From positions 1-39,976 of the forward strand of contig NZ_CALMAT010000042.1 in the NCBI RefSeq assembly GCF_937859865.1: a stretch of 39,976 nucleotides of DNA, read 5' to 3'. Below, one piece after another: positions 2,957 through 21,701 of this stretch. Both the position numbers and the translations under genes were made by a program. Origin of the DNA: an uncultured Mucilaginibacter sp. (GTDB lineage: Bacteria; Bacteroidota; Bacteroidia; Sphingobacteriales; Sphingobacteriaceae). Positions within the stretch are counted from its first letter, which is position 1, and the number at the start of each line of letters is the position of its first letter. Below the pieces are notes generated by a model. It searched no databases, was not told the origin of the DNA, and worked only from the letters and a program-made list of their open reading frames with translations.

Positions 2957-2986
2957 GTTTCAATTCCTATTTGGTACGATTAAAAG
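2957..2986 (-). repeat. Degenerate leader-distal terminal repeat
   Basis: It differs from the consensus at positions 1, 12, 14, 15 and 20 and contains CCTATTTGGT instead of CCAACATGGT. Decay of the terminal repeat is usual at the oldest end of an array. The same CCTATTTGGT variant appears in the solitary repeat at 20723-20752. Confidence 0.9.
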
Positions 2987-5900
2987 CAAAATTGCAAAAA
3001 GGTTGTTCCTCCAGAACCCTTATTTCAATTCCAACATGGTGCGATTAAAAGATGCCCGATTATCCAATTAAATCCGAAGATATCCTAATTTCAATTCCAA
3101 CATGGTGCGATTAAAAGCAATACCAAAGAGATTCTGTAGATATTGATATTTAATTCAATTCCAACATGGTGCGATTAAAAGTTGTGGCAAAGCGCAAGAA
3201 GCACTCCGTTCGATTACGGATTTCAATTCCAACATGGTGCGATTAAAAGCTTTCCCAACCCTGTTCCAATTGGTGACTTTACTATTTCAATTCCAACATG
3301 GTGCGATTAAAAGTTTTGAAAATATATTAATATTGTACAATGATGAAAAATTTCAATTCCAACATGGTGCGATTAAAAGCCAAAAACCGGAAGCATGACG
3401 GCCGATCGTAGCGATATTTCAATTCCAACATGGTGCGATTAAAAGCGGATTTTGATGCTTATTACAGGCAGCTTTCCAAATTTCAATTCCAACATGGTGC
3501 GATTAAAAGATTTTATCCATTTCTGAATAAAAATCTGTATCGTGATTTCAATTCCAACATGGTGCGATTAAAAGCATCGTCAGAACCGCTAAAGGTCAAT
3601 GTGCGACCATATTTCAATTCCAACATGGTGCGATTAAAAGTCGGTTAAAGCGATAGCAGGCCGTTGATCTTATGCTGATTTCAATTCCAACATGGTGCGA
3701 TTAAAAGCGGCTGCTGCGGCGGAGGAGGGCGGGGCGGGGTAAAGATTTCAATTCCAACATGGTGCGATTAAAAGCCTTTAAAAACTTAATATTTGTATTG
3801 ATACACTCTTATTTCAATTCCAACATGGTGCGATTAAAAGTGTAAATCAAAATTGGAAAAGACCATAGTTGATTCTTATTTCAATTCCAACATGGTGCGA
3901 TTAAAAGCATTTATGAATTTCTTATAATCATACAAACTAAAATCATTTCAATTCCAACATGGTGCGATTAAAAGTGTTTTAAAAGTTTAATTTTTTCCGC
4001 TGGCTCCCTCCATTTCAATTCCAACATGGTGCGATTAAAAGCTGTATCGGTTGCTTATATAGCGTGTGTGTTGTTATATATTTCAATTCCAACATGGTGC
4101 GATTAAAAGTTTTATGATTTCATTTGTGATAACATTTTCTTTTATTTCAATTCCAACATGGTGCGATTAAAAGTGTTTTGACTTTGCCCAATCCCTGTTC
4201 CTTGCTGCACATTTCAATTCCAACATGGTGCGATTAAAAGCCACGGGCTGCACGTTAAATTTTGCTTCTGTTTTATCATTTCAATTCCAACATGGTGCGA
4301 TTAAAAGATTTGACCCGCGTACGGGCAAAATGATTATCAGGCATTTCAATTCCAACATGGTGCGATTAAAAGTTTGGATTTACGGATTTCCCAGACCAGT
4401 CTTTCGCTATTTCAATTCCAACATGGTGCGATTAAAAGAATTAATTGACCCAACTGCTTATGCTATCATAATGAGATTTCAATTCCAACATGGTGCGATT
4501 AAAAGTTTTAGTGCTATCATTTAAAAAAACGATAGTGTCAATTTCAATTCCAACATGGTGCGATTAAAAGCACTTACGCAAAAGACGACCCATCCATCGC
4601 TATCAGATTTCAATTCCAACATGGTGCGATTAAAAGACAAAACCTAATATTTGCAAGTTATTTCCGGTAATATTTCAATTCCAACATGGTGCGATTAAAA
4701 GAGTTGTACCAGTACCAATGTATGCAGCCTTTGTCTGATTTCAATTCCAACATGGTGCGATTAAAAGCTTCATCGCAATCGCTATAAATATCTTCCTCGC
4801 TGTCATTTCAATTCCAACATGGTGCGATTAAAAGTTGTACTGCTGTAAGTCCCCTGCTAACGCAAAATAATATTTCAATTCCAACATGGTGCGATTAAAA
4901 GAGATGAAACGAATGATTGTTACTGCTTTATTAGGTGATTTCAATTCCAACATGGTGCGATTAAAAGTTAGTATGCAAAAACAGCACGCAATAGAAAAAC
5001 TTTATTTCAATTCCAACATGGTGCGATTAAAAGAGATGTTTCTCCTACTGATAAAAACGCAACAATAACATTTCAATTCCAACATGGTGCGATTAAAAGT
5101 ATCGTTGTGTGTGTAGTCTTCTTTTATGGAAGCCTATTTCAATTCCAACATGGTGCGATTAAAAGAAAAGGGTTAGAAAAAACGCCTGTAAATGGGTTTA
5201 AATTTCAATTCCAACATGGTGCGATTAAAAGGGCCGTGATGTTTTTATGCTTATTATTTATTTATATTTCAATTCCAACATGGTGCGATTAAAAGGCACG
5301 AAATCAGGTACGGTAAAATTGGCGGTACATATTTCAATTCCAACATGGTGCGATTAAAAGAAATACTGCCAGTTTTTGCAAGCATTTGTGCGTTTGATTT
5401 CAATTCCAACATGGTGCGATTAAAAGTCTTTCCCAACTGTAAAAAATCTCGGCTCCGTTCCAATTTCAATTCCAACATGGTGCGATTAAAAGAAAGTTCA
5501 CGCTTTCCATAACGGAATTTACAAGCGATTTCAATTCCAACATGGTGCGATTAAAAGGCAATAGCAACGCCTGCCGCTATCGCTCCCCGAAAATTTCAAT
5601 TCCAACATGGTGCGATTAAAAGAAATTATACACCATCGTTTTTCGCAAAACTTTGATTATTTCAATTCCAACATGGTGCGATTAAAAGTTGCAGGATAGC
5701 CGCCCAGCCCGCCAAGAGGGAGGGATTTCAATTCCAACATGGTGCGATTAAAAGACTTTAAAAATCTGCCGTCATGCTCCGCGAATTTATTTCAATTCCA
5801 ACATGGTGCGATTAAAAGACATATCCAAACATATCCTGATAAGCGGTTACCAATTTCAAATCCAACATGGTGCGATTAAAAGTGTGATAAACTGCTTTTG

Positions 5901-8900
5901 TGGCCAGCTTTCCAATGTATTTCAATTCCAACATGGTGCGATTAAAAGACTTAAATTACAGATAATAGCAATGCTTCTTTTATATTTCAATTCCAACATG
6001 GTGCGATTAAAAGAAAGTCAACTTTTAAAGTAAATGAAATTTCACCAAATTTCAATTCCAACATGGTGCGATTAAAAGTACCAGCAGTTTAGTAAAGACC
6101 ATAACTTTTTCATAATTTCAATTCCAACATGGTGCGATTAAAAGACATAAAAGCGACAAATAAGAAATACAAAACATTCATTTCAATTCCAACATGGTGC
6201 GATTAAAAGCCTCTATCATTTCGGCAGCTTCTTCGAGTTCGTTCTGATTTCAATTCCAACATGGTGCGATTAAAAGAAAAAAATCCCTCTTTATTTATCG
6301 TATCGGTTGGGAGATTTCAATTCCAACATGGTGCGATTAAAAGTGTTCTTCCGATAAAAGCAGGGCCAGGTTGGAGCTATTTCAATTCCAACATGGTGCG
6401 ATTAAAAGCAAACGGCTGTAGGGAGAAACACGAGTGCAAAGTTATTTCAATTCCAACATGGTGCGATTAAAAGGCATTTGATTAGCCTCTTTCCTGACCG
6501 GGAAATCATTTCAATTCCAACATGGTGCGATTAAAAGTATCGTTCAATACCGCGCCCATTTTGCCAGGTCATATTTCAATTCCAACATGGTGCGATTAAA
6601 AGAACTTACCTGTGTGTTTGCTGTGTGTTGCCTGTGTGATTTCAATTCCAACATGGTGCGATTAAAAGGTCGCTATCATCTTTGAACTTAAAATTATAAG
6701 TCTTATTTCAATTCCAACATGGTGCGATTAAAAGAATGAAGGGCCTTCCGTACACAGACGCTTTATTTTATTTCAATTCCAACATGGTGCGATTAAAAGG
6801 GCGATGTTGAAAGTAAAACTTCGGTCGAATCATTGAATTTCAATTCCAACATGGTGCGATTAAAAGACGCATTCCTTTATCAGAACAAACCATTATCTGA
6901 TTATTTCAATTCCAACATGGTGCGATTAAAAGGGAAAACGCAATTTAAAGCGTCTGCGCTTGTTGATCTATTTCAATTCCAACATGGTGCGATTAAAAGT
7001 GCCCTGCCGCCCGTAATGCCGGTAAAAGCAAGGCTAATTTCAATTCCAACATGGTGCGATTAAAAGGGGTCGCTCGCGTGAGTTTAGTAGCCTGCCGGCA
7101 GCAATTTCAATTCCAACATGGTGCGATTAAAAGAAAATGTGCCGATAAAAGAAGCACCACGCGGGTGGATTTCAATTCCAACATGGTGCGATTAAAAGGC
7201 ACAATAATTTTAAGTTTCATATCTGTATAGTTTATTTCAATTCCAACATGGTGCGATTAAAAGAAAGTTCGGCTTTGGTAACATTGACTTTTGTTACCTA
7301 ATTTCAATTCCAACATGGTGCGATTAAAAGGTATATCTTATATCTGCATCAATTTTCCATTTAGAGATTTCAATTCCAACATGGTGCGATTAAAAGCGTT
7401 TCACGCTTTTCTATCCCAGCCGCCTTTATCCTAATTTCAATTCCAACATGGTGCGATTAAAAGAAACTTTCCCTTTTTCATACCAACGGCATAATTTTAT
7501 TTCAATTCCAACATGGTGCGATTAAAAGTTCCAGCCTGGGTTTTGGCATCGGTAAAAAGAAATTATTTCAATTCCAACATGGTGCGATTAAAAGAACTTT
7601 TGTCGATCAAATTAAGCAGTACCTGTTCGATTTCAATTCCAACATGGTGCGATTAAAAGGTCGTATGGCTTTCTAAAAGTTTGGTTATTTTCCATTTCAA
7701 TTCCAACATGGTGCGATTAAAAGAATTTATAATTATTCATTGCGACAAGGAATTGATAAATTTCAATTCCAACATGGTGCGATTAAAAGTTTGTCCGAAC
7801 CAGTGGCTGTCTTTCGTGTTAATAGTATTTCAATTCCAACATGGTGCGATTAAAAGTTTCGGCTTTATAAATTGCACAACACCAGATATTCCATTTCAAT
7901 TCCAACATGGTGCGATTAAAAGAAAACGTAAAAATCAGATTCGCGAGTAATTGCAATATTTCAATTCCAACATGGTGCGATTAAAAGCGCCGGTTATAAC
8001 CGTATTGATATTTTTTAAAATATATTTCAATTCCAACATGGTGCGATTAAAAGCTTTGTGTTTTTTATTTGTAACAGTTGCCAGCAGATATTTCAATTCC
8101 AACATGGTGCGATTAAAAGTATTATCACAACAACGCGCACAATTATAAATAATACATTTCAATTCCAACATGGTGCGATTAAAAGCTGGTAGGAATAATT
8201 TACCAATTATACTTTTCGTGATTTCAATTCCAACATGGTGCGATTAAAAGTTATTCAACAATTCCTGGCCAGTTGAGAGAATCCCATTTCAATTCCAACA
8301 TGGTGCGATTAAAAGAACAAACTTACAAAAATGATGACCGATGATGGCTTATTTCAATTCCAACATGGTGCGATTAAAAGTTTCTGTTGCTGATCCAGGT
8401 CTTTGTTTGTTATATATTTCAATTCCAACATGGTGCGATTAAAAGTATGACCATCACGCTAATCGCTTGTCCGGTTTTGTTATTTCAATTCCAACATGGT
8501 GCGATTAAAAGTGTTGCCGATGTGGAGCGCGATATTATTGCCGATACCTATTTCAATTCCAACATGGTGCGATTAAAAGTACGGGTGCATTAAAAGAGTA
8601 TGATATGAGTGTTGATTTCAATTCCAACATGGTGCGATTAAAAGTATCTACTCTGACAACAACGACTATTTGGGAAACTTTATTTCAATTCCAACATGGT
8701 GCGATTAAAAGTCGTTTGGATTTATTCAGAATCTGGCTTTTTGATTTAATTTCAATTCCAACATGGTGCGATTAAAAGAGCAAGTCAACTTTCAAAGTAA
8801 AAGATATTTCACCGAATTTCAATTCCAACATGGTGCGATTAAAAGAAGAAAAAGGGTTAAGCTACTTTAATAGTATTTACATTTCAATTCCAACATGGTG

Positions 8901-11803
8901 CGATTAAAAGTAAAAAGCAGGCGAATACGACCGCCAAAAAGAAGTAATTTCAATTCCAACATGGTGCGATTAAAAGCATGATATTTTAAGTTTAAAGGGT
9001 AGTGAACAATGAAATTTCAATTCCAACATGGTGCGATTAAAAGAGTGATGTTATATTTCTGTTTTCCGTTGTTTAAAAAATTTCAATTCCAACATGGTGC
9101 GATTAAAAGAAAGTTACACGGCCAGAAGTTTTAAATTTGATTTCATTTCAATTCCAACATGGTGCGATTAAAAGTCTTGGCGGAAATACACGCCTGGGCG
9201 TTCTTTCAACAAATTTCAATTCCAACATGGTGCGATTAAAAGCAAAAACAAGAAAAAAAAGGCAAGATTTTAACAGATTTCAATTCCAACATGGTGCGAT
9301 TAAAAGTAATGAATATGAATGCTTTTGGAGACCGTAACGGATTTCAATTCCAACATGGTGCGATTAAAAGCACCATAACGCTTTTACCAACAAAAACATT
9401 TTTAAATTTCAATTCCAACATGGTGCGATTAAAAGTTCAACAAACACATCGTTGTAGCAAGTTTAGAAGACATTTCAATTCCAACATGGTGCGATTAAAA
9501 GAGCGCAGGAAATGAAGGTAGATTAAATAATATCACATTTCAATTCCAACATGGTGCGATTAAAAGATTAAATTGGGATTTTGATATGCCGGAAACAGCC
9601 AGATTTCAATTCCAACATGGTGCGATTAAAAGTATGCAAACCGCCTTTCCAGCCGGGTTGAACCATTTCAATTCCAACATGGTGCGATTAAAAGGGGGTG
9701 GTTCTTTCCGTTTGTATTCATCTTACTTTTCAATTTCAATTCCAACATGGTGCGATTAAAAGGAAACAAGGCCGATCACCATCATGCAGCTTAACTTATT
9801 TCAATTCCAACATGGTGCGATTAAAAGAACAGTTGGAACAAATGCCGTGAAGTAAATTCTGAATTTCAATTCCAACATGGTGCGATTAAAAGACTTGACC
9901 CATTATGCTTTATCATTTCAAAAATGTGATTTCAATTCCAACATGGTGCGATTAAAAGTGCAACTGATTAACAAGTTGCATATCTCTTATGTTGATTTCA
10001 ATTCCAACATGGTGCGATTAAAAGTTATATCTTTGGTCTCCCTTTAACACTTAAACATCAATTTCAATTCCAACATGGTGCGATTAAAAGCGGACGAATA
10101 CAGGAGCATCACAAAGCATAGTGCTACATTTCAATTCCAACATGGTGCGATTAAAAGTGACCTGATTTTAACAGGCAACACGCCTCAAACCCCATTTCAA
10201 TTCCAACATGGTGCGATTAAAAGTTCTATTGCTTTCATCATAATTTCGTTTTCTGCCATTTCAATTCCAACATGGTGCGATTAAAAGTGATAAAGAAAGA
10301 AATTATAGACTTGTTTTGTATTTATTTCAATTCCAACATGGTGCGATTAAAAGAACAAGCCGCTGTCAACAACGGGTGCCAGGGTGTATAATTTCAATTC
10401 CAACATGGTGCGATTAAAAGAGCTTAATGGTTTTACAAGGAAAAGTTATTGCAAATTTCAATTCCAACATGGTGCGATTAAAAGAATGGTTGCAAAGGCC
10501 ACGGCTATTGAATTTGGCTATTTCAATTCCAACATGGTGCGATTAAAAGCAAATGCTTGGTTGGCAAAAACACCAACCTCGAAATTTCAATTCCAACATG
10601 GTGCGATTAAAAGCGAAGATTGTTGCGCTGGCAGACCTGAAACATTCTCAATTTCAATTCCAACATGGTGCGATTAAAAGATGTATAATAGATGATTATT
10701 ACAATCCTAGTATAGCTATTTCAATTCCAACATGGTGCGATTAAAAGTTTCGCTCATGCGGCTACATGAAATAGATAACGCCATTTCAATTCCAACATGG
10801 TGCGATTAAAAGCCGTATATCTTCGGGTAGCTGATTGAGATAATGGTATTTCAATTCCAACATGGTGCGATTAAAAGTTGTTTAATGTTTTTTCCTAACG
10901 TAAACGCCGGAGCAATTTCAATTCCAACATGGTGCGATTAAAAGACGCGGCGGGAAGCGTACCTCGCTAACAAAGAAGATATTTCAATTCCAACATGGTG
11001 CGATTAAAAGTGCGCAAGAATTGACAATAACACGCAAGCTATGACATTTCAATTCCAACATGGTGCGATTAAAAGTTTTTGAAGTCCCTTTGTACCGCTT
11101 CTTTTTCACCATTTCAATTCCAACATGGTGCGATTAAAAGCATAGCCCAAAGAAGATTTTATACTGCCAATACTAATATTTCAATTCCAACATGGTGCGA
11201 TTAAAAGTACTACCGGATGAGGCTTTCCTCCAAAACATCCTCATTTCAATTCCAACATGGTGCGATTAAAAGCTTCGGGGCAAAATGGGTTATCTTTAAA
11301 TGTAGAAATTTCAATTCCAACATGGTGCGATTAAAAGTTCGGCTTGGGCAAGGGCGCTGGCTACCTGCTGGGATTTCAATTCCAACATGGTGCGATTAAA
11401 AGACTCTCTGGCGTAAAAGTACCGCTCATTAAAATACAATTTCAATTCCAACATGGTGCGATTAAAAGAATCGTTTGATTTTTCTCCTAACAGGTTAATG
11501 ATAACATTTCAATTCCAACATGGTGCGATTAAAAGTGCTTTTTTTACCGGCCTTTTTTTCGTGTTCGGTTTCATTTCAATTCCAACATGGTGCGATTAAA
11601 AGAATAAAAAATCAAGATTAAACTCAAAGATTGAAACCGATTTCAATTCCAACATGGTGCGATTAAAAGCCCTACGGGTCGGGCTATTCGCTACAAGTCC
11701 TCGCGCATTTCAATTCCAACATGGTGCGATTAAAAGCCACCAAAAAAATAGTGCTAAAAGAAGCATTTGTTAGATTTCAATTCCAACATGGTGCGATTAA
11801 AAG
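2957..11803 (-). CRISPR. CRISPR array, type I-B repeat, 135 repeats and 134 spacers
   Basis: I counted repeat starts one by one from 2957 to 11774. The repeat is 30 bp; on the plus strand it starts ATTTCAATTCC and ends GGTGCGATTAAAAG. Repeat-to-repeat distance is 62-68 bp, so spacers are 32-38 bp. Nearly all repeats are identical; exceptions are 2957 (five mismatches), 3152 (second base A) and 5853 (CAAATCC). On the minus strand the repeat ends in ATTGAAAT, the form of a type I-B crRNA 5' handle. Together with the degenerate repeat at the left end and the leader at the right end, this means transcription runs right to left, away from cas2. Short open frames through the array are repeat artefacts. 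Confidence 0.99.
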
Positions 11804-12154: not shown

Positions 12155-12418
12155 TTACAAAATATTATCCAGCTTGTTTTTCTCGGCACCGATTACTTCT
12201 TTTTCCAGCCATTTTTCTTCCCGGCTTTTAAAAATCAGGATGCTGTCTGTTTCTGCATCAATAATTAATTTCGCTTTCGCCAGTAGTTCTTTTAACTTAA
12301 CCGGCGTAATTTCTCCTTCAAAAACAGAATTCTGTATCCAATTTAAATACTGCCTGCACAATTTCAGTATTTTGGTAACCCGCTTTTCGCCAATATCATA
12401 CACTAAAATTACATACAT
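12155..12418 (-). CDS. cas2: CRISPR-associated endonuclease Cas2
   Basis: The 87-residue length and the N-terminus MYVILVYDIGEKR, with the first-strand Asp of the ferredoxin-like fold, are typical of Cas2. The central segment NWIQNSVFEGEITP also matches the family. Cas2 is the structural partner of Cas1 in the complex that inserts new spacers next to the leader. It lies 111 bp after the remains of cas1 and is the last cas gene before the leader. The frame is intact, but the Cas1 partner encoded here is disrupted. Confidence 0.95.
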   Translation of the reverse strand: MYVILVYDIGEKRVTKILKLCRQYLNWIQNSVFEGEITPVKLKELLAKAKLIIDAETDSILIFKSREEKWLEKEVIGAEKNKLDNIL

Positions 12419-12529
12419 CTTTATCTGCTTTTAGTTAATTGTTCCTGGTTAATAGTTTACCGTTGCTGCCAATACTTTGCATTGTTACACACTTTATACT
12501 ATCACAACATCTCATAATCGCCAATCCAA

Positions 12530-13460
12530 TCACCACCTCACTTTATAAGGTTTATACTCATCCAAGCCTAAAACGTGTTTGCCCAATTTATAACATTCTA
12601 ACTTGATCAAATGCTTGTAGCTTACACTTCGGTTCAATATCGGATGCTTGAATGTTTCGTTCAACCGTTCTTCCCAGGCTTTTACAAATGTTGAGCAGCC
12701 TAAAAATTGTACGGTCAACCATTACCGGTTTAAAAATCTCTGCCAGATCCAGTGCCAAAGAAAACCGGCGGTAACCTGGTTCGTGCAAAAAACTAATGGT
12801 TGGGTTTAATTGGGTGTGATACAATTGGTTTAAACAAGCCGAATAACATAGCATATTTCCAAACGAAATCATGGCATTGAGTTCATTTGCCGGAGGTTGT
12901 TTGCTGCGGCCTTCCATCTGGAAATCGTTTAAAATCGTATCAAAAGCCTGGTAATACTGCTGGCGGATGTTGCCTTCAATGCCCATCAGTTCGTCTACGG
13001 CTTTGGTTTGTTCAATCTGTAAAGCCAGCAACTCGATACTTTCCAGCGGAAGGCTGACATCTTTTTCCCGGTTGAGGTAATAACGCAAGCTTTTCGTCAT
13101 GTTAAACGCCGCACCACTTACAAACTTCCTGGCCAAGATCATCCGTTTTTTGGCATCAATATAATGTTTGGTTTGCGAAATTTGCATCTTACCGGCCAAC
13201 AAATATTCTTTCGGACAAAAGCTGCCGGTATAGTTTTCGTAATAATCAAAAAAGTGGACGGCAATGCCAGCTTTCCCCAAAAAATTGTACAAAGCACTAT
13301 TGGCGTCCAAGCTGCCGAAACAGAAAATATCAGAAACACCTTCTATCGGAATGTATTTCGGCGTTCCTTCTATGCCTTCTTCGCTTACCGGTAAAAACCT
13401 CAGCGTATTATCTTTCCGGCTCATCCGGCCGGGATTGAACAAGTAAAAAGTTGTTTTCAT
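12530..13460 (-). pseudogene. cas1: cas1 with internal deletion and frameshift
   Basis: Frame one, from the ATG at 13460, encodes a good Cas1: MKTTFYLFNPGRMSRKDNTL, FGSLDANSALYNFLGK, catalytic E162 (IEGNIRQQYY), H226 (FLHEPGYRR) and D238/E241 (LALDLAEIFKP). It stays on track to DRTIFRLLN near residue 257. The expected continuation then appears in another frame from about 12700 to the stop at 12530: STFVKAWEERLNETFKHP, NRSVSYKHLIKLECYKL, ending GLDEYKPYKVRW. The two parts together span 931 bp, about 70 bp less than a Cas1 of about 333 residues, and the missing part is the segment between LLN and TFVKA. As it stands, translation gives 290 residues with about 35 wrong ones at the end. Assembly error cannot be excluded, but a single-base error would not explain the missing segment. 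Confidence 0.85.
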
Positions 13461-13534
13461 GCTGATGCTTCTTTTACCGGTATAAAATTGGTGTCGAATT
13501 TAAATGGATAATCAAGCCGTAACTTTGTTTTCAT
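13457..13534 (-). CDS. Possible 25-residue ORF translationally coupled to cas1
   Basis: The frame begins MKTKLRLDYPF and ends FIPVKEASA. Its TGA overlaps the cas1 ATG as ATGA, the arrangement seen in translational coupling. It is one unit of the 74-bp tandem repeat, and its second half is encoded by the dispersed element. It could be a functional leader peptide, or simply a by-product of the duplication. No family is recognised. Confidence 0.35.
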   Translation of the reverse strand: MKTKLRLDYPFKFDTNFIPVKEASA

Positions 13535-13608
13535 GCAGATGCTTCTTTTACCGGTATAAAATTGGTGTTGAATTGGAACGGATAATCAGGCAGTAACTTT
13601 GTTTTCAT
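13531..13608 (-). CDS. Possible 25-residue ORF, upstream twin of the previous one
   Basis: The frame begins MKTKLLPDYPF and ends FIPVKEASA. It overlaps the next small ORF by ATGA. Six nucleotide changes separate it from its twin over the variable part, four of them changing the amino acid, yet the frame and length are kept. Upstream, a third open frame out of phase with cas4 also ends in KEASA with an ATGA overlap. Confidence 0.35.
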   Translation of the reverse strand: MKTKLLPDYPFQFNTNFIPVKEASA

Positions 13609-13671
13609 GCTGATGCTTCTTTTACCGATATAAAATTGGTGTCAAAAATTTGATCAACAATTTGGTTTAGT

Positions 13672-14184
13672 TCAAACAGGTTCTTCCACATAACAAAAAT
13701 CAAAATAGCTGCATTGCTTGCAAATGGGTTTGCGTAAAAGTGGCGGACAAATTTCGCTATTTACAATGTCCCTAATGCTGGTTTCCCAAGTTTGGATCAT
13801 TTCCTCATCGCCGTGTTCTAATTGTACGGTTTCCCGCTGCCGCATTTTTGGATATTCAATCAATCCGGTTACGCCTGCTATACCTTGCTGCCCCAACTTG
13901 TAGATGTAATATTTTACTTGTGCAATATGTGCTTTTTCTACCTTATCGCTTTTCTTTACCTCATGCACTACCTTGTTTTTGGCATCATAAAAATCTATTT
14001 TGATGCCATCCACTTCTACTTCGGTGTATTGCTGCGAACGGTCGGTATAAGTAGTTTCGCCTATCAGTTTTCCTTCTGCTACGGTTTCAGAAGTGTGTTC
14101 CATTTGGATACCGTTGGCAAACAACCACAATTTCCGATGGCAAACATGGTAGTAGTTAATGTGGGTGGCAGTAAGGTTAAGCAT
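13672..14184 (-). CDS. cas4: CRISPR-associated exonuclease Cas4
   Basis: The 170 residues carry the full Cas4 signature. C15 lies in CHRKLWLF and C155, C158 and C164 in ICKQCSYFDFC, together binding an iron-sulfur cluster. The RecB-like nuclease residues are D64 (IKIDFYD), E75 and K77 (HEVKK) and Q89. Cas4 trims and orients prespacers for the PAM before integration by Cas1-Cas2. It starts 7 bp after the pRiA4b-like gene, so both are in one transcript. It is separated from cas1 by 211 bp containing the 74-bp tandem repeats. Confidence 0.95.
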   Translation of the reverse strand: MLNLTATHINYYHVCHRKLWLFANGIQMEHTSETVAEGKLIGETTYTDRSQQYTEVEVDGIKIDFYDAKNKVVHEVKKSDKVEKAHIAQVKYYIYKLGQQGIAGVTGLIEYPKMRQRETVQLEHGDEEMIQTWETSIRDIVNSEICPPLLRKPICKQCSYFDFCYVEEPV

Positions 14185-14191
14185 CGTATTT

Positions 14192-14797
14192 TCAGACTAA
14201 TTCAAAATTGTTTTCCTGATCAAAATCTACATTGCGCACTGCCTCTTGTGCTTCTTTTAGGCTGAAAAAATTGAAATCCCAATCTTCGTTCTTTTTCAGA
14301 CCAAGCCACTTTCGGAATTCTTTGTGTTCCCGATGTTTTGGATCGGCCAAGGCAACTTTCAATTCTTCGTAGCCCCAAGGGCCACCGCAATCTTCGGGCG
14401 GACAATTACCTTTTCCAGCCAGACAATCTGCCAAAAACAGTTTTTCTCCGGTGATTTTTTCTGACGTAATTAAGTGCTCCCAGTTATCGCCTAAATCATA
14501 GGTGTACACAAACTTTTGTCCTTCGGCTTTAAAAATATCGGCTAACTTAATTTCCTTGCTGTCTATCAATTCATCATCCTCAAAAAAATCAATATCATAT
14601 AATTCTTTATCCGCTATTATTAAATTACTAAAACGATCATCAGGTGAAAACTCATATGCGTGTGCATCCTGCCAGTCAAAAGCTGCCTGGATAATCAAAT
14701 GGAACTGGTAAAAAGTAAAATTTTCCGGCACCAGCAAACGCCGCCAAACTGGTGGTTTGATGATGTCTTTGATTTGGATTTTGAATTGGAATGGCAT
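14192..14797 (-). CDS. Plasmid pRiA4b ORF-3 family protein inside the cas operon
   Basis: The 201 residues show the hallmarks of this family (PF07929): PPVWRRLLVP near residue 15, YDLGDNWEHLI in the middle, and CPPEDCGGPWGYEELKVAL toward the C-terminus. The biochemical function of the family is not established. It sits between cas3 (73 bp) and cas4 (7 bp) on the same strand, so it is probably co-expressed with the cas genes. Codons about 174-183 (SLKEAQ region, 14248-14276) resemble the dispersed element. Whether it takes part in CRISPR function or is a passenger cannot be told from sequence. Confidence 0.85.
   Translation of the reverse strand: MPFQFKIQIKDIIKPPVWRRLLVPENFTFYQFHLIIQAAFDWQDAHAYEFSPDDRFSNLIIADKELYDIDFFEDDELIDSKEIKLADIFKAEGQKFVYTYDLGDNWEHLITSEKITGEKLFLADCLAGKGNCPPEDCGGPWGYEELKVALADPKHREHKEFRKWLGLKKNEDWDFNFFSLKEAQEAVRNVDFDQENNFELV
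14248..14276 (+). repeat. Dispersed element-like sequence inside the pRiA4b-type gene
   Basis: TGCTTCTTTTAGGCTG followed by AAAAAATTG matches the core well and the rest loosely. It is inside a coding sequence, and chance similarity is possible. Confidence 0.4.
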
Positions 14798-14870: not shown

Positions 14871-17198
14871 TTAAATTAATTGCGTATCCCAAATTTCCTG
14901 CTCATTATATAAGAGCCCTAACTCTGAATCGTATTTCTTAGTTAGTATCCAGTAAGTAATTTCTAATAATTTGCCTTTTTCACTTTCAAAATTATAAGTT
15001 GTTTTGTATAAGTTTTGATCATTCTCTGCAATAAGTTGTGCGAACTTATTTTTTCTAATTTGTACTTTCAATCGTTCTGCACCAATAAAGTCAAAGTCTG
15101 ATAGATAATCCTCAAAGCGTTGCCTTAATTTTATTGGTAATACTTTTATTCCATCAAACAGTTTGTAAAAATCTTCTTCTTGTTTTTTAGAATGTAACAA
15201 AGGAATAAGCTGATTTTCTGATGTATATTTTAATAACTGATAGGTTTCGTCAAAGTCCTTTTTGCTTTTCTCATCCCAATGTGGATATACAAAATCAATA
15301 TACTTTTGCAATTTACTTTCTTCGATAACTCCGTCTTGTTTTAACGAGATTTTTTGTAAGACATCCAATGTTCGTAAAATCACATCTACGCTGTATATAA
15401 ATTTGTCGTTTTTGTTTGATTCGTTAAATATTACAACTGGAGATATTCCTTTTTTTCTTTTTCGATTTACTCTGCCAAATCGTTGTATTAAAGCATCTAT
15501 AGGTGCAGGCTCAGTGTATATAACATCATAATCAATGTCGAGACTTACTTCGATTGCTTGGGTTCCAACTAAAAGTTGAATAGGATTATTTTCGTCTTTT
15601 TCGCCCTCCTTCAAATCCTTTTCATGACTATTCCTGTCTTCACCAGTAAATGCACCATGCAATAAAACAGAATTACTTGCAAATTCCTTCAATTTTTTAA
15701 AAACCTCCTGAGCTTGAACAACTGTATTACAAACTACTAATACTTTTATGCCAGCTTTTAAATCTTTTTCAATCAAGTAAAGGCTATCAAATAATAATCC
15801 ATCTTTTAAAACAACTTTATGTCTGTCAAATTTTTTGTATAGCTTTTCATCTGCTGTTATAGGAGAAAAATGACCAATTGCCATTTCCAATTCTTTTTTA
15901 AAAAATGATGGCATAGTTGCCGTCATAATAAAAACTTTACCTTTCATCCATTTAACAACATATTCGAGGAAAACTTTAATCTGTGCAAATGTTTCAGGAC
16001 TATAGGCATGAATTTCATCAAAAACGAAATAACCTCCTGTCCACTCAAATATTCCTTGCTCAAAACCTTTTAGTCCAAATAGATTTTTCAGCAATTGAAA
16101 AGGTGTAACTACCTTTAATGGTGTATAAAGTGTTTTGAATTTATTTTTAATTTCATCAATAGCCTCTTTCTTTGAATTGTTGATATATTGAACGTTATCA
16201 AGGTAATCATAAAGGTAATCTTGTAATTTCCCATGCAACATTCCAACTTTTGAATTCCCCAAACCATCTCCATTTGAAGATAAACGTTCATACATTGCAT
16301 TAATAGAAGCAGTAAACGGCAATACATAAAAAACTCGGCCTTGTCCAAATCCTTCCATTTGTCGTTGTAGCCATAGCATAGCACTTTCAGTTTTACCCGA
16401 GCCTGTTGGTGCAGTTAAGATGACATTCCCAATTATCTTCTCACATTCTAACTGATGATTGTAAAAATCATTTTCTTCTTTTTGCAAGTTTATCCGTTGT
16501 TTATTTAAGAATGAAAAAGAAGATTTTTCTAATTGTTCAATATGTTCAATACGTGCAGAACCTAAATGGTCGCAATGTTTTAAAGCCCCAAATAAAAGTA
16601 GTAACTTAAAATAATCTTCACTATTTACATTCAATTCTCCTTTTGTTGATTTTAGTAAATACGAAAGTATTAGCTTTTGAGGATGCTTAATTTCATAATC
16701 ATTTAGTTTGATTTTAAAATCATTCTCCAATAAAGAATAAACTTCCTTTAAATAAATTTTTGCAAATTCCTCCTCATAGTTAAGCAATCCATCATCACCA
16801 AATTCATCCTCTATCTTTTGTAATAAATATGTATTTGCAACGTACTCTTTATTTAAACGCTCAAAATCTCGATGATGCCCTGCAACTATTAAACTAATTA
16901 ATTTTTTAACCGGAGCTTTAATATCTAATCCATCAATAAATGGTAAAGAAAAAAGTTCGTGACGTTGTCCATGCCATTCATTTTTTGAAATCCCCATTAA
17001 TAATTTTATAAACTCTGCATGCCCTTTACCCAAGTCGTGAGTAATAACAGATAACCTAACCACTTCCCAGAAGTCAATATCCTGAATTATTTCTTTTGCT
17101 TTAGAAAAACAAACTTTTAGATATTGCCAAATTTTTAGACAATCTATTATGTGCTGTTTTAAACTTATTCGAGGTTCAGATTTTGCTAAAAGTTCCAT
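14871..17198 (-). CDS. cas3: CRISPR-associated helicase/nuclease Cas3
   Basis: This is a complete 775-residue Cas3 with HD nuclease and SF2 helicase domains. HD motifs are H16, H54-D55 (THDLGKGH), the His cluster near 80 and 108-109 (VAGHHRDF) and KHCDHLG near 207-213. Helicase motifs are Walker A TAPTGSGKT (262-270), DEIH (394-397), TATMP (426-430) and QRFGRVNRK (572-580). Recruited by Cascade bound to a target, it nicks and unwinds foreign DNA. It starts 21 bp after cas5. All key residues are present, so the effector should be active. The gene is clearly more AT-rich than cas6 or cas1. Confidence 0.97.
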   Translation of the reverse strand: MELLAKSEPRISLKQHIIDCLKIWQYLKVCFSKAKEIIQDIDFWEVVRLSVITHDLGKGHAEFIKLLMGISKNEWHGQRHELFSLPFIDGLDIKAPVKKLISLIVAGHHRDFERLNKEYVANTYLLQKIEDEFGDDGLLNYEEEFAKIYLKEVYSLLENDFKIKLNDYEIKHPQKLILSYLLKSTKGELNVNSEDYFKLLLLFGALKHCDHLGSARIEHIEQLEKSSFSFLNKQRINLQKEENDFYNHQLECEKIIGNVILTAPTGSGKTESAMLWLQRQMEGFGQGRVFYVLPFTASINAMYERLSSNGDGLGNSKVGMLHGKLQDYLYDYLDNVQYINNSKKEAIDEIKNKFKTLYTPLKVVTPFQLLKNLFGLKGFEQGIFEWTGGYFVFDEIHAYSPETFAQIKVFLEYVVKWMKGKVFIMTATMPSFFKKELEMAIGHFSPITADEKLYKKFDRHKVVLKDGLLFDSLYLIEKDLKAGIKVLVVCNTVVQAQEVFKKLKEFASNSVLLHGAFTGEDRNSHEKDLKEGEKDENNPIQLLVGTQAIEVSLDIDYDVIYTEPAPIDALIQRFGRVNRKRKKGISPVVIFNESNKNDKFIYSVDVILRTLDVLQKISLKQDGVIEESKLQKYIDFVYPHWDEKSKKDFDETYQLLKYTSENQLIPLLHSKKQEEDFYKLFDGIKVLPIKLRQRFEDYLSDFDFIGAERLKVQIRKNKFAQLIAENDQNLYKTTYNFESEKGKLLEITYWILTKKYDSELGLLYNEQEIWDTQLI

Positions 17199-17219
17199 AC
17201 AAGATCAAAAAATCTTTAA

Positions 17220-17894
17220 TTACATTGTTTCAAAATTCAATTGATGTATATATATATCTACTTCACTTTTACCAATTGTATCTCGATAAGCTTTAAGATT
17301 GCTGCTAACTTTAGAATTATGATTAAGTACAGAATATGATTCTGTACCTATATTTTGTCGAGGAATTGTATTGGAGAAGTATTTTGGTAAAGCTTGGATT
17401 ACCCCGGGAAGATAATTATTAGCGAATGGCACAATTTGTCCTTTAATCTTATCAGCATTATCTACTTCTGGCAAATCCTTTTTATGGATTCCTGCTGAAT
17501 CAACAGATGCCAAATCATTCATCCTTCCTAATACTAATGGATATACCGGAAGTTTTAAATAGTTGACTATTTCTTCATCAGAAACATACAAGCGTAAAAA
17601 GTTTTCAAATAGAAACTCTCTTTTAATTACGTTTGATTTAGCGTTGTTTGTTGCTTTACCTTTATTGCTATCAATCATATAAATTGTTTCCAAATCAATT
17701 TCCTTTCCCTGAAATTCAAAGTAATATCCAATTGAAAGTTGTTTATGATTTATATAAAATCCTGCAGCGGCATTTATTAATCCCAAAACTGTACTTAGTG
17801 GTGGTACTTCTAAAGTAGGCTGTATGCCACTAATCAGATTTGGATAACGAAAACTGGCTGTCCAGCTTCTTATATCAATAGCATAAAATTCCAT
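17220..17894 (-). CDS. cas5: Type I-B Cascade subunit Cas5
   Basis: The 224-residue protein begins MEFYAIDIRSWTASFRYPN and continues with LEVPPLSTVLGLINAAAGFY, the N-terminal RAMP pattern of Cas5 proteins. In Cascade, Cas5 holds the 5' handle of the crRNA, here predicted to be ATTGAAAT. Its start codon overlaps the end of cas7 by one base, so the two are translated from one message, as usual for these stoichiometric partners. Confidence 0.93.
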   Translation of the reverse strand: MEFYAIDIRSWTASFRYPNLISGIQPTLEVPPLSTVLGLINAAAGFYINHKQLSIGYYFEFQGKEIDLETIYMIDSNKGKATNNAKSNVIKREFLFENFLRLYVSDEEIVNYLKLPVYPLVLGRMNDLASVDSAGIHKKDLPEVDNADKIKGQIVPFANNYLPGVIQALPKYFSNTIPRQNIGTESYSVLNHNSKVSSNLKAYRDTIGKSEVDIYIHQLNFETM

Positions 17895-18988
17895 TATACT
17901 AATTGTTGTTTCAACTGTTCACAATAATTATCAATAGTTTCATTTATTGATCCGATCTGAACTTTCGGGTATTCGTTGCCTAATGATTCTAATTCTTTTA
18001 AAGAATTGCTATAATCATCAAGAAAACCACTACGCCTGCCAATAAATATTATACCTAGGAATTGCTCTTTATAATCTTTAAGCACTTCTTTAATTCCTTC
18101 AGTATTTAAGTACATTTTATCGCTATTTATTCCCTCGCTTGTAGCAATATGAGAAAATGGATGATTTCCAGTAGTTGTAGTTGCTAATACAATAAACTTA
18201 GGTGTAACATCTGACATATTATTTGTCTGCATTGCCCCTCCTGAAATAGTTTTTAAGGCTTTTAATGTATCCTCAATTCTTTTTTCACGAACTTCCTTTG
18301 TTAAACGAACTAATTTTTGAGCATTACCCTTGCTATCTTTTACATAACTATCTTCAATTTCGATAGCACCATTTGCAAGAGCATCTTCTTTAAGTTTTTC
18401 TGTTAGATTTTTAAATCCTGTTTTATTATAATTAGAAAAGGTGCCAGCTTGTTCCAAATCTAAGGAGAACATCCCTTTCATTATGGCACTATATTCCTCT
18501 TTTACGTAAGGAACAGAGTCTCCTTCCTGGCGAGCCATACTTGACCAATTTTCTGCTGGACGAGTAGAACCGACAGAAACAATAACCGAATTTTTTAAAG
18601 GTGAGACACGCGTAACCGTTACGTTTTCCGTTTGTTCCTTACCATTTTTCAATATAGGTTTTCCTTCTTCATCTACTATCACATCCTTTGCCGCTTTCAT
18701 ATACCCAAACATATCATCATCAGGATATTTAATTGGGTCAGCAGATGTAAATGCAATTTTATTATCTCTTGTTATTGGCGAAAGAATCCAATCATGATTT
18801 CTTTGCAAAGCATCACGCCACCAATAACGCCATGCTTGACCAGATACATAAGTATATACTCTTCCGTTTTTAAAAACTTTCTTTGTAGCAACAGCATTAT
18901 CAAAATTACTAGTTGTGCTTTTGCCTGCATTGTTTAGAGCAACAACATCTACATCTAATAAAATAAACCCTTGTGTTTTTAATTTCAT
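17894..18988 (-). CDS. cas7: Type I-B Cascade backbone Cas7 (Cst2/DevR type)
   Basis: The 364-residue protein begins MKLKTQGFILLDVDVVALNN and contains TYVSGQAWRYWWRDAL near residues 47-62, typical of the Cst2/DevR branch of Cas7. Later SVGSTRPAENWSSMARQEGDS and FSHIATSEGINSDKMY fit the same family. Several copies coat the crRNA spacer segment. It lies 7 bp after cas8 and overlaps cas5. Confidence 0.93.
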   Translation of the reverse strand: MKLKTQGFILLDVDVVALNNAGKSTTSNFDNAVATKKVFKNGRVYTYVSGQAWRYWWRDALQRNHDWILSPITRDNKIAFTSADPIKYPDDDMFGYMKAAKDVIVDEEGKPILKNGKEQTENVTVTRVSPLKNSVIVSVGSTRPAENWSSMARQEGDSVPYVKEEYSAIMKGMFSLDLEQAGTFSNYNKTGFKNLTEKLKEDALANGAIEIEDSYVKDSKGNAQKLVRLTKEVREKRIEDTLKALKTISGGAMQTNNMSDVTPKFIVLATTTTGNHPFSHIATSEGINSDKMYLNTEGIKEVLKDYKEQFLGIIFIGRRSGFLDDYSNSLKELESLGNEYPKVQIGSINETIDNYCEQLKQQLV

Positions 18989-18995
18989 AATTATA

Positions 18996-20429
18996 TTAAT
19001 TTAAGATTGGTGATTCATTTTCTTCGTCTTCTAAAATTGGAATTGGCACTACCTTGTCAGTTTCGTGTAGCTTTTCATAAATTGCAATTAGTAAGACATC
19101 CCTTACCTCCCGCCAATTACCTCCATCTGGAAATAAATATTCTGCATAATCTTGAACAGTAATTAAAGGATTTTCTGCCTCTTTAAGATAATTTTCACTG
19201 TTTAGCTTTACAAAAAGCTGCCGAAGACCATGAGCTGATTTTTCGCCATTTAATCGTTTAATACTTTTTGTAATAAAATCTGTTTCCCGATCTATTACAA
19301 CAAAATCTGCTATTTGCTTAATTTTATCAATTGTTCTTTTTTCCATATTTTTAATGACTGTTTGATATTTTTCAACTATAATAAAAGGGAAAGAATGTTT
19401 TATATTCCAGTAGAGTATATTTCCTAAAATAGATCTTCCTGCTAACAGGTTTTCAAGGACACTATTTTTCCAGATTTTGTATGTTTCAAAATCAATAGTC
19501 TCACTTTTGCTATCCCAAACTTCTTTATCTTCATTAAAAGTAGCCCCTTTGTATTTAGAATTTCTATAGTTATTTCTAAGAAACTTATTCCAATCTTTTT
19601 TTATCTTGATACGATTACAAAAAGCATAGAACTTAAAAACCTTTGATTCGAGAACATAAATTACTACTTCCGGGCTTGCTCCAAAATTTGTAAAATGATA
19701 AAGGTTTAAGGTTATATCGGCTTTATTAAATAATTCTTCATCTTCATTGCTTTCTAATAAGGTTTTTAAATTTAGGCTTAAGTATTCATCAGCAAAACTA
19801 AATAAAGCATTTGCGGGATTATTAAATTTAGATCTTAATACACCTTCGGATGTACCACTACTAAATGCCTTTAAATTTTCTATGCAATTCCTTTCAACAA
19901 AAAATGCTGTTACTTTTTCGTGATTGCTACTAAGCATAGCAACTTTATCATTAAGTTGTACTAATCCTAATGGAACAAAGAAAATTCTAATTAATATTTC
20001 TTTAGAAAGATATAATCCGGATTCAAAGTTGTGATGAAAATTTATAAAAGTACCTGAGCCCGAAAGAATATGATTATCTCTCCCTGCTGAAAATAACTTT
20101 GTTTTCCGGCCGGATATTCTACAATATCCTTCCTGATGCTTTTCGGTTTCATCAATTAGTGCTTTGTAATATTTCAAAGCTTCGTCTATTTTTCGCTGTC
20201 CAGCAAAAGCTGCTTGTGTAATTTTAGAATTTAGAAAAAACGCATGTAACTTTCCTCCCCATTTATTTACGTAAAGATTTGCTGCAAAATCTATAAGACC
20301 TGATATGTCGCGATCTTTTAAATGCGGCAAAGTCCATAAATACTTTATTACTAATCCTCCTGTATCAGCAAAAGGATCGCCGGTTATGTTGGTAAGATAT
20401 TGTGTTGTTACTTTATCTGTTTCTTTCAT
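18996..20429 (-). CDS. cas8: Type I-B Cascade large subunit Cas8 (Cst1-like)
   Basis: The 477-residue protein has the N-terminal NITGDPFADTGG motif seen in Cst1-type large subunits and GYCRISGRKTKLFSAGRDN near residues 96-114. The large subunit recognises the PAM and positions Cas3. Sequence divergence in this family is high, so the assignment rests on that motif, the length and the place directly before cas7 and cas5. It starts 22 bp after the DUF433 gene, with which it is probably co-transcribed. Confidence 0.9.
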   Translation of the reverse strand: MKETDKVTTQYLTNITGDPFADTGGLVIKYLWTLPHLKDRDISGLIDFAANLYVNKWGGKLHAFFLNSKITQAAFAGQRKIDEALKYYKALIDETEKHQEGYCRISGRKTKLFSAGRDNHILSGSGTFINFHHNFESGLYLSKEILIRIFFVPLGLVQLNDKVAMLSSNHEKVTAFFVERNCIENLKAFSSGTSEGVLRSKFNNPANALFSFADEYLSLNLKTLLESNEDEELFNKADITLNLYHFTNFGASPEVVIYVLESKVFKFYAFCNRIKIKKDWNKFLRNNYRNSKYKGATFNEDKEVWDSKSETIDFETYKIWKNSVLENLLAGRSILGNILYWNIKHSFPFIIVEKYQTVIKNMEKRTIDKIKQIADFVVIDRETDFITKSIKRLNGEKSAHGLRQLFVKLNSENYLKEAENPLITVQDYAEYLFPDGGNWREVRDVLLIAIYEKLHETDKVVPIPILEDEENESPILN

Positions 20430-20451: not shown

Positions 20452-20688
20452 CTAAATACTATTATCTAATTCTGCATAAGCAACACAAGCTAAAACATCC
20501 TCTTTTGTCAACTCAGGAAAATCATCAATAATTCCTTCCATGGTCATTCCCGAAGCCAAATACCCGAGAATATCAGATACAGTTATGCGCAAACCTCTAA
20601 TACAAGGTTGCCCGCTTCTTTTTCCCGGTTCTAAAGTAATCCTACCATTATAATCAATTTCTTCGCTCATTTTTATTTTAAGAATCAT
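20452..20688 (-). CDS. DUF433 family protein (VapB-like antitoxin domain) heading the cas8 operon
   Basis: The 78 residues match DUF433 (PF04255): GKRSGQPCIRGLRITVSDIL, then DDFPELTKEDVLACVAYAE. The fold is a winged-helix DNA-binding type, and these proteins are usually antitoxins paired with a DUF5615 PIN-like toxin. No toxin gene is present; cas8 follows after 22 bp. The start may be at 20688 or at the second ATG, 20670, which gives the more usual N-terminus MSEEIDYNG. Its position as first gene suggests it could act as a regulator of the cas operon, which is inference. Confidence 0.8.
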   Translation of the reverse strand: MILKIKMSEEIDYNGRITLEPGKRSGQPCIRGLRITVSDILGYLASGMTMEGIIDDFPELTKEDVLACVAYAELDNSI

Positions 20689-20722
20689 AAATCCTTCAAC
20701 AACAACTTCACTAAATATGAAA

Positions 20723-20752
20723 ATTTCATTTCCTATTTGGTGCGATTTTTTT
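20723..20752 (-). repeat. Solitary degenerate CRISPR repeat in the 5' region of the DUF433-cas8 operon
   Basis: Aligned without gaps to the array repeat, the first 25 positions match at 21, including GGTGCGATT and the ATTTCA end; the last five are replaced by T. It shares CCTATTTGGT with the terminal array repeat. On the minus strand it gives a handle AATGAAAT (one change from the array handle) and lies 34 bp before the ATG at 20688, in the orientation that would put it in the operon's 5' leader RNA. Confidence 0.8.
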
Positions 20753-20756
20753 TATG

Positions 20757-20772
20757 TTTGTATCAGTACAAA
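20757..20772. promoter_or_regulatory. Small inverted repeat next to the solitary CRISPR repeat
   Basis: TTTGTA tcag TACAAA is a perfect 6-bp inverted repeat located 4 bp from the degenerate repeat, in the gap between cas6 and the DUF433 gene. It may be an operator; no U-tract makes a terminator unlikely. Confidence 0.4.
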
Positions 20773-20897
20773 TTGCTTTAGTATCTAAAACTCGCTTCAT
20801 GTGGGGGTTGCTTTAAGCACGGGGCTAAAAGAATTTGTATTTTTAAAAGTTTTCCGATTGGTTGTCCGTTTATCATTGTTTCTGTTTTTTGATTATT

Positions 20898-21701
20898 TTA
20901 TTTTTCTCCCACACAACCAAATCCAATCGCATTCATATTTCCAAGTCCTGCATTCAACGCCATTTCCAAAACCCTGCCCGAAGCACGCATCTCCAGATCA
21001 AAGCCTAAAAACCCACGCACTTTGGTTTCGGCGGCTTTGCCTGCTTTAATGGTCAAGAGGCGGCTTTGCAATTTTGCCAGTCCGCCGGTTTGTATCTCAA
21101 AAGGTTTTTGTTGGGTTTCCTGTGCTGCTGTTTCCGGGCCAAAAGCTACAATTAGTTTTTCAACCAGGTTTTGTTTCAGCAGCGAAATAAAACCGGCATC
21201 CTCCGGCGATAAGTAATCTTCGTTGCCGCGCTCGTTTTTCCGGCATACCACCATGGGCGAAAGCAGTTTCAGTTTTAAGGTATGCACTGTTTCAAGCTGG
21301 TTACTTGCAATGGGAAAAGGCATGGCTTCAATTTGCGAAATGGTAAAGTTGGCCTGTGCGGTGCGGTCGCCGATAGAAAGGTTTTGGCTGGCAAATATCC
21401 CTTTCACCAAGTTTTCTGCAAATTCAGGCATGTGGCAGGCCAAAACAAAAGTAACCTGGTTGCCTTGCAGCTTCAATGCTTCTTTTACCACTATAAATTT
21501 GGCCTGCAGGTTAGAAAAAGTAAAGAATTTAAAATGCCGGGAATGCCTGTTTTGCGCGTAGCCTTTCTGGTGCAAAAACTCGGCATAACCTGCATCGGCC
21601 TGCGCTATTTTCTGGTAGATAACAGCGGACAAAGGATACTGATAATTAAAAGGCACAAAGGTTTCCCTTTGTAAAGGCGTTAACGTTAATTTAAATTGCA
21701 T
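20898..21701 (-). CDS. cas6: CRISPR repeat endoribonuclease Cas6
   Basis: The 267-residue protein ends with GLGNMNAIGFGCVGEK, the Gly-rich C-terminal loop that defines Cas6, and has the RAMP N-terminus MQFKLTLTP with HFKFFTFSNL near 56-65. Cas6 cuts the array transcript within repeats to give crRNAs with an 8-nt 5' handle. It follows the GH25 gene by 67 bp on the same strand and is separated from the rest of the operon by 209 bp. Codons 67-76 (AKFIVVKEAL) are formed by a dispersed element copy. Base composition is closer to the ordinary genome than to cas3-cas8. Confidence 0.95.
   Translation of the reverse strand: MQFKLTLTPLQRETFVPFNYQYPLSAVIYQKIAQADAGYAEFLHQKGYAQNRHSRHFKFFTFSNLQAKFIVVKEALKLQGNQVTFVLACHMPEFAENLVKGIFASQNLSIGDRTAQANFTISQIEAMPFPIASNQLETVHTLKLKLLSPMVVCRKNERGNEDYLSPEDAGFISLLKQNLVEKLIVAFGPETAAQETQQKPFEIQTGGLAKLQSRLLTIKAGKAAETKVRGFLGFDLEMRASGRVLEMALNAGLGNMNAIGFGCVGEK
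21476..21504 (+). repeat. Dispersed element copy inside cas6
   Basis: ATGCTTCTTTTACCAC followed by TATAAATTTGG lies in frame within cas6, encoding about ten residues on the opposite strand without breaking the gene. Confidence 0.8.

Follow-up and report, generated by a model that had tools for sequence, protein, structure and literature searches.

Among those described in the accessible literature, the characterised crRNA-like regulators come mostly from haloarchaea. CreR is a crRNA-like RNA by which Cascade is directed to the promoter of its own cas genes, and CrePA involves a protein toxin that is repressed by Cascade, the CreP toxins typically carrying a KilA-N domain (PMC12737573). In the type I-B CreTA systems of H. 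hispanica and H. hubeiense (PMC8501985, PMC9458426), the one-repeat CreA of H. hispanica lies between cas6 and cas8 and has an 8-nt handle; CreA pairs at positions 1-5 and 7-11, while positions 6 and 12 are free (PMC8501985). Racr RNA anti-CRISPRs and solitary repeat units, which are found on phages and plasmids, mimic the repeat in order to inhibit (PMC10651486).

Regulatory ectopic repeats are already known, and the cases presented here are new members, i.e. a solitary degenerate repeat in the window (the whole stretch of 39,976 nt that was analysed, which is contig C42 of a 3.98-Mb Mucilaginibacter genome), a second copy on contig C66, and a repeat-guide-repeat unit in the sister genome L005. 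Like CreR, the window repeat is degenerate, ectopic and part of a type I cas locus; it differs from CreR in consisting of one repeat, sense to the operon and placed in the operon leader, for which no target was found. The L005 unit resembles CreR more fully, with two degenerate repeats, a guide, a terminator and a partial match to the putative cas8 promoter. With CreTA the window repeat shares the one-repeat layout between cas6 and cas8 and the 8-nt handle, and the L005 guide obeys the CreA seed rule exactly; in contrast, the window guide has no seed target, and the block that might be a candidate toxin RNA has no tandem rare codons. As with the Racrs, a single non-array repeat could engage Cas6, but the window repeat lies inside the host's own cas operon. 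Two sister Sphingobacteriaceae show different solutions at a single cas locus: one has a CreR-like unit whose target is of the textbook kind, the other a lone repeat without a target. The second lone repeat, within a toxin-antitoxin operon, comes on top of these.

The type I-B locus of the window

The CRISPR system of the window is of type I-B, with the minus-strand gene order cas6, DUF433, cas8b1/Cst1, cas7/Cst2, cas5, cas3, a PRiA4_ORF3-family gene, cas4, cas1, cas2 and array. The cas6 gene upstream of the solitary repeat is full length (20898..21701, minus strand; TIGR01877, E 1.6e-24; PF01881, PF21350), and Cas6 is intact. The first gene after the repeat encodes a DUF433 protein with an antitoxin-like domain (20452..20688, minus strand; PF04255, E 5.6e-24) and is followed by cas8b1 (Cst1; 18996..20429, minus strand; TIGR01908, E 1.2e-10). 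Profile matches on the same strand place cas7 (Cst2/DevR), cas5 and cas3 at 14871..18988, and the PRiA4_ORF3-family gene, cas4, cas1 and cas2 at 12155..14797. The array (2957..11803, minus strand) has about 135 repeats with the leader side at 11803, and its oldest, distal repeat CTTTTAATCGTACCAAATAGGAATTGAAAC (2957..2986, minus strand) has AAATAGG in common with the solitary repeat.

A solitary degenerate repeat upstream of DUF433 and cas8

The solitary repeat occupies 20723..20747 on the minus strand, with 25 of 30 repeat positions recognisable. Read in array-transcript orientation (20747 to 20723), it is AATCGCACCAAATAGGAAATGAAAT, compared with AATCGCACCATGTTGGAATTGAAAT in the array core, which gives an identity of 21/25, and of 22/25 to the distal repeat at 2957. 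An earlier note on this DNA had claimed the 21/25 match, and both a recount and the odds under a first-order Markov model bear it out: 21/25 or better has p = 5e-9 per position, corresponding to 0.0003 expected sites in the non-array window and 0.04 in a 4-Mb genome. The same note had placed the repeat in isolation between cas6 and DUF433-cas8, in the orientation of the array transcript and 34 nt before the first ATG, all of which agrees with the sequence, the DUF433 ATG lying at 20688. A whole-genome degenerate pattern search, whose reversed controls gave 0 matches, found only the distal repeat and one site on C66 as further convincing non-array sites.

The handle is AATGAAAT (20730-20723, minus strand) where the array has ATTGAAAT, and at the far end an A run (20748..20753, minus strand; a T run on the plus strand) replaces the first five repeat bases, so that the preserved handle-like end and the T run noted earlier are both present. 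These five positions vary among the repeats of relatives too; the invariant core AATCGCACC is kept 9/9 and the handle is near-intact, while freely varying positions are lost. The adjoining inverted repeat TTTGTA/TACAAA does exist, but a better partner for TACAAATT is AATTTGTA, located about 60 nt further on, and this pairing forms the outer stem of a conserved block described below. Neither a second repeat nor a terminator was found between the solitary repeat and the DUF433 gene. TAnnTTTG is the Bacteroidetes -7 motif; none was found reading into the repeat from the operon direction, and any transcription of the repeat would therefore have to run through cas6.

Arrays of the same repeat family were found in, and compared across, a dozen further family genomes. 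Their repeats have AATCGCACC and (A/T)TTGAAAT in common, with the first five and the central bases variable. A central A is found in the solitary repeat, in the oldest window repeat and in the C66 copy, whereas the array repeats of the window and of relatives have T at this position. This private base supports the descent of the three from a common ancestor, and the earlier argument for common descent over chance, which had been drawn from AAATAGG in the oldest repeat, is thereby extended to the C66 copy. The cas operons of about ten further members of the family were scanned, and at the thresholds applied none had an ectopic repeat next to it. Of note, one genome of the family carries a broken cas6 with a short array of the same repeat family directly behind it (G137:C170; L063 14087-15260).

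The stretch that follows the handle, TTTCATATTTAGTGAAGTTG... up to the DUF433 ATG (20689..20722, minus strand), is guide-like, has no second repeat, and no target was found for it. When these 34 nt were aligned in five frames to the cas region, no target with a 1-5/7-11 seed was detected in the cas locus, the best runs of 7-8/15 being at background level. Allowing up to two mismatches in the 15 seed letters, the whole genome gave 27 non-self matches versus 59 in the reversed control, none of them in a telling place, and a search of the window with wobbles and type I-B (CC-type) PAMs yielded nothing above background. A target of the window guide within the solitary repeat itself (20729, plus strand) was also considered and rejected, with mismatches at 5 and 11 and a hairpin z of only -1.3. 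Since seed target, second repeat and terminator are all missing, a guide-directed CreR or CreA is not supported in the window. The earlier idea that a single guide leads Cascade to a cas promoter thus finds no footing here, and no PAM-flanked partial match to the cas promoters in the downstream nucleotides, which had been suggested as a check, rises above background.

The sister genome and a CreR-like unit

Further relatives with the same cas8 were limited to L005 (genome G027), a lichen metagenome assembly, and a short Ferruginibacter contig (L006), and an order-wide search added none. In the latter, DUF433 and the repeat are missing from the cas6-cas8 interval, which contains another gene instead (1294-2193), presumably encoding a WYL-type regulator. 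L005 is the only full-length close relative of the window cas locus, its cas8 being 86% identical. At the position orthologous to the solitary repeat it reads CGGTAGAATTGGAAATGAGAT, i.e. it retains GGAAATGAGAT with the handle variant AATGA as in the window, while the core AATCGCACC is gone. The shared handle part suggests that an element at this position probably predates the split of the sister species. Loss of the repeat-like block in relatives was one of two observations which the earlier note had named as speaking against its reading, and in this only available pair the block is indeed not conserved.

The gap between DUF433 and cas8 is about 450 nt in L005 vs 22 nt in the window, and within it lies an antisense mini-array (L005 9597-9665) that consists of the degenerate repeat psiR1 AATCGCATCGCTTTGAAATTGAAAC, the guide GTATTTAAAGATTCTTATCAG, a second degenerate repeat psiR2 ATTAATCGCACCAAAAGG and a strong GC hairpin with a T run, so that both repeats, handle, guide and end signal are present. 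The target of the guide, GTATT-AAAGA-TCTTAT (L005 9759-9742, minus strand), is part of the putative cas8 promoter and is closely followed by a TAnnTTTG motif, a 51-aa ORF and cas8. Positions 1-5, 7-11 and 13-18 pair, the only mismatches are those at 6 and 12, and the site is flanked by CCA. The run of 15/15 at non-6th positions stands against 7 at the next best site, and by chance 3e-6 such matches are expected in the intergenic stretch and 1.5e-4 in the locus; no comparable guide-target pair was found in 13 other loci scanned likewise. In a different type I-B system CCA has been proven to act as a PAM (PMC6079278), and we infer that it is the PAM of this system too and that the target site is a promoter. 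On these grounds the L005 mini-array is a strong candidate for a CreR. The crRNA-based autoregulation proposed earlier is therefore supported for the sister genome, with its hallmark target, but not for the window, whose guide has no target.

The 51-aa ORF (L005 9801-9956), directly behind the CreR-like target and before cas8, has no Pfam match and is absent from the window; should it encode a toxin, the L005 unit would better be called CrePA. A strict pattern revealed no further convincing ectopic repeats in G027.

A conserved structured block between cas6 and the repeat

Between cas6 and the solitary repeat lies a block of 77 nt (20767..20843), predicted to fold into a three-way junction on the plus strand and followed by a T run. 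It is 72/77 (94%) identical in L005, compared with 62% at the four-fold sites of the neighbouring cas6 and cas8, and the same plus-strand fold is predicted in both genomes. Both also have TAnnTTTG before the block and a T run after it; in the window the motif is matched by TATGTTTG (20753..20760, plus strand), reading away from the operon, and in L005 by TATATTTG at a conserved position. Judged from these identities, it is the 77-nt block, not the repeat, that is kept by selection. A 5-codon ORF on its plus strand (ATG TGG GGG TTG CTT TAA; MWGLL) is conserved in L005; of its codons GGG is rare (6 per 1000) and TGG, TTG and CTT are not, so that no two rare codons are consecutive. Comparison of the block with Rfam, viral contigs and plasmids gave no match.

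A second ectopic repeat in a toxin-antitoxin operon

The second ectopic repeat, ATCGCACGAAGTAGGAATTGAAAT (L027 9513-9536; G000:C66), has a near-consensus handle and is located between higB and higA, which encode a HigB-type toxin (PF09907) and its HTH antitoxin. The gap between the two genes is 106 nt on C66 vs about 6-48 nt in a dozen relatives of the gene pair (sizes good to about one base), which places the C66 copy in additional DNA. At the higB start, a site flanked by CCT matches the guide of this copy at 9/10 with one wobble, about 0.1 such matches being expected by chance. As in CrePA, a crRNA-like repeat adjoins a protein toxin gene; the differences are the HigB-type toxin, in place of the KilA-N domain typical of CreP, and the weakness of the match at the higB start. 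We regard it as a possible lead that the C66 locus represents a CrePA-like or a Cas6-regulated toxin-antitoxin pair. This repeat copy and the conserved structured block are the most interesting loose ends of the analysis.

Possible origin and role of the solitary repeat

Most likely, the solitary repeat belongs to, or is left over from, a crRNA-like self-regulation of the CRISPR locus, of the kind whose locus is seen intact in the sister genome. Its sequence retains the features required by Cas6 and by the handle-binding subunit, but none that can be recognised as required for a guide; the simplest reading is that, in the window, no more is left than a leader transcript which Cas6 may bind or cut. 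Accordingly we rank first, although at a probability of only about 0.42, that the window repeat is a Cas6 recognition or cutting site left in the cas-gene transcript without a usable guide-target pair. On this view an older repeat of the system itself would have been copied to an ectopic position upstream of DUF433-cas8-7-5-3 before the sister species split; if the copy still acts, the leader may be bound or cut by free Cas6 some 42 nt ahead of the DUF433 start, and effector expression would be lowered whenever Cas6 exceeds pre-crRNA. Consistent with this are the repeat identity far above chance, the private base common to the oldest repeat and C66, the 9/9 core and near-intact handle next to an intact Cas6, the persistence of GGAAATGAGAT and AATGA in L005, the CreR-like unit there, and a window guide without a target. 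Against it speak the loss of the core AATCGCACC in L005, the only available pair, the lack of a -7 motif reading into the repeat and of ectopic repeats beside about ten other cas operons of the family, and the fact that a copy younger than assumed could have been retained by chance.

This last point leads to the second-ranked and somewhat unlikely explanation, namely that the repeat is a functionless leftover of an ancestral array or mini-array beside cas6. It would account for the missing second repeat, terminator and target and for the decay in L005, and the small same-family array directly behind the broken cas6 of G137 demonstrates that arrays do occur at such a place. Core and handle are, however, better kept than expected of a neutral copy of that age: at about 0.26 substitutions per site per lineage, at most one change in 25 has p near 0.01 for an AAATAGG-type ancestor, a value that rises to about 0.3 if the ancestor was of the present array type. 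Mere chance resemblance in AT-rich intergenic DNA, to which one might point because only 21/30 full-length positions match, is practically negligible given the 0.0003 sites expected in the window, the correct strand, the location in a cas locus and the private variant of the oldest repeat.

Readings that give the window repeat a working RNA product fare less well. A one-repeat CreR or CreA, in which Cas6 cuts after the repeat and the RNA AATGAAAT-TTTCATATTT takes Cascade to the promoter of a cas or toxin gene (the functional guide RNA would start AATGAAATTTTCATATTT), has the architecture of H. hispanica CreA, with one psiR between cas6 and cas8 (PMC8501985), and a CreR-like counterpart on the same genes in L005. 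Considering that the guide runs straight into the coding start without a terminator, and that neither the cas-locus seed search, the genome matches (fewer than in the reversed control) nor the CC-type PAMs gave a signal, a guide whose target, perhaps distant or unusual, was not recognised here is unlikely and ranks third. It is also conceivable, albeit very unlikely, that the 77-nt block gives rise to a small toxic RNA, transcribed away from the operon, to which the solitary repeat supplies a crRNA-like antitoxin, as in CreTA. The conservation of the block beyond four-fold sites, its shared fold, -7 motif and mini-ORF, and its placement between cas6 and cas8 as in H. hispanica fit such a module; the repeat, on the other hand, has been lost in L005 while the block was kept, the mini-ORF has no two consecutive rare codons, and the putative promoter of the block shows no canonical seed match to the guide (best 8/10, mismatches at 5 and 11, near background).

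Returning to the Cas6 site, the occurrence of ectopic repeats in the leaders of antitoxin-type genes at two places (DUF433-cas8 and higB-higA) makes it tempting to speculate that Cas6 regulates translation or mRNA stability through such repeats, a generalisation that we nevertheless hold to be distinctly unlikely. If true, CRISPR activity would set its own effector level and the toxin-antitoxin balance by mRNA cutting, without a guide RNA. The question raised is whether an mRNA can be regulated through nothing more than a Cas6 site, and the birth, replacement and decay of crRNA-like regulators are directly testable in the sister pair.

Spacers and dispersed repeats of the window

Attempts to derive a PAM from spacers gave only chance-level matches for the arrays of the window and of L028 against phages, and no match in scans of viral contigs; one strong spacer match, to a repeated host element present in many family genomes, provided no usable PAM. 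The newest array spacers (11670-11706 and 11737-11773) match dispersed host repeats at 91-97%, including the intergenic GCTTCTTTTA family, and are possibly self-derived. Between cas4 and cas1, three 74-bp tandem copies (13451-13672) are members of the dispersed GATGCTTCTTTTACC family, which is present across the window and the genome.
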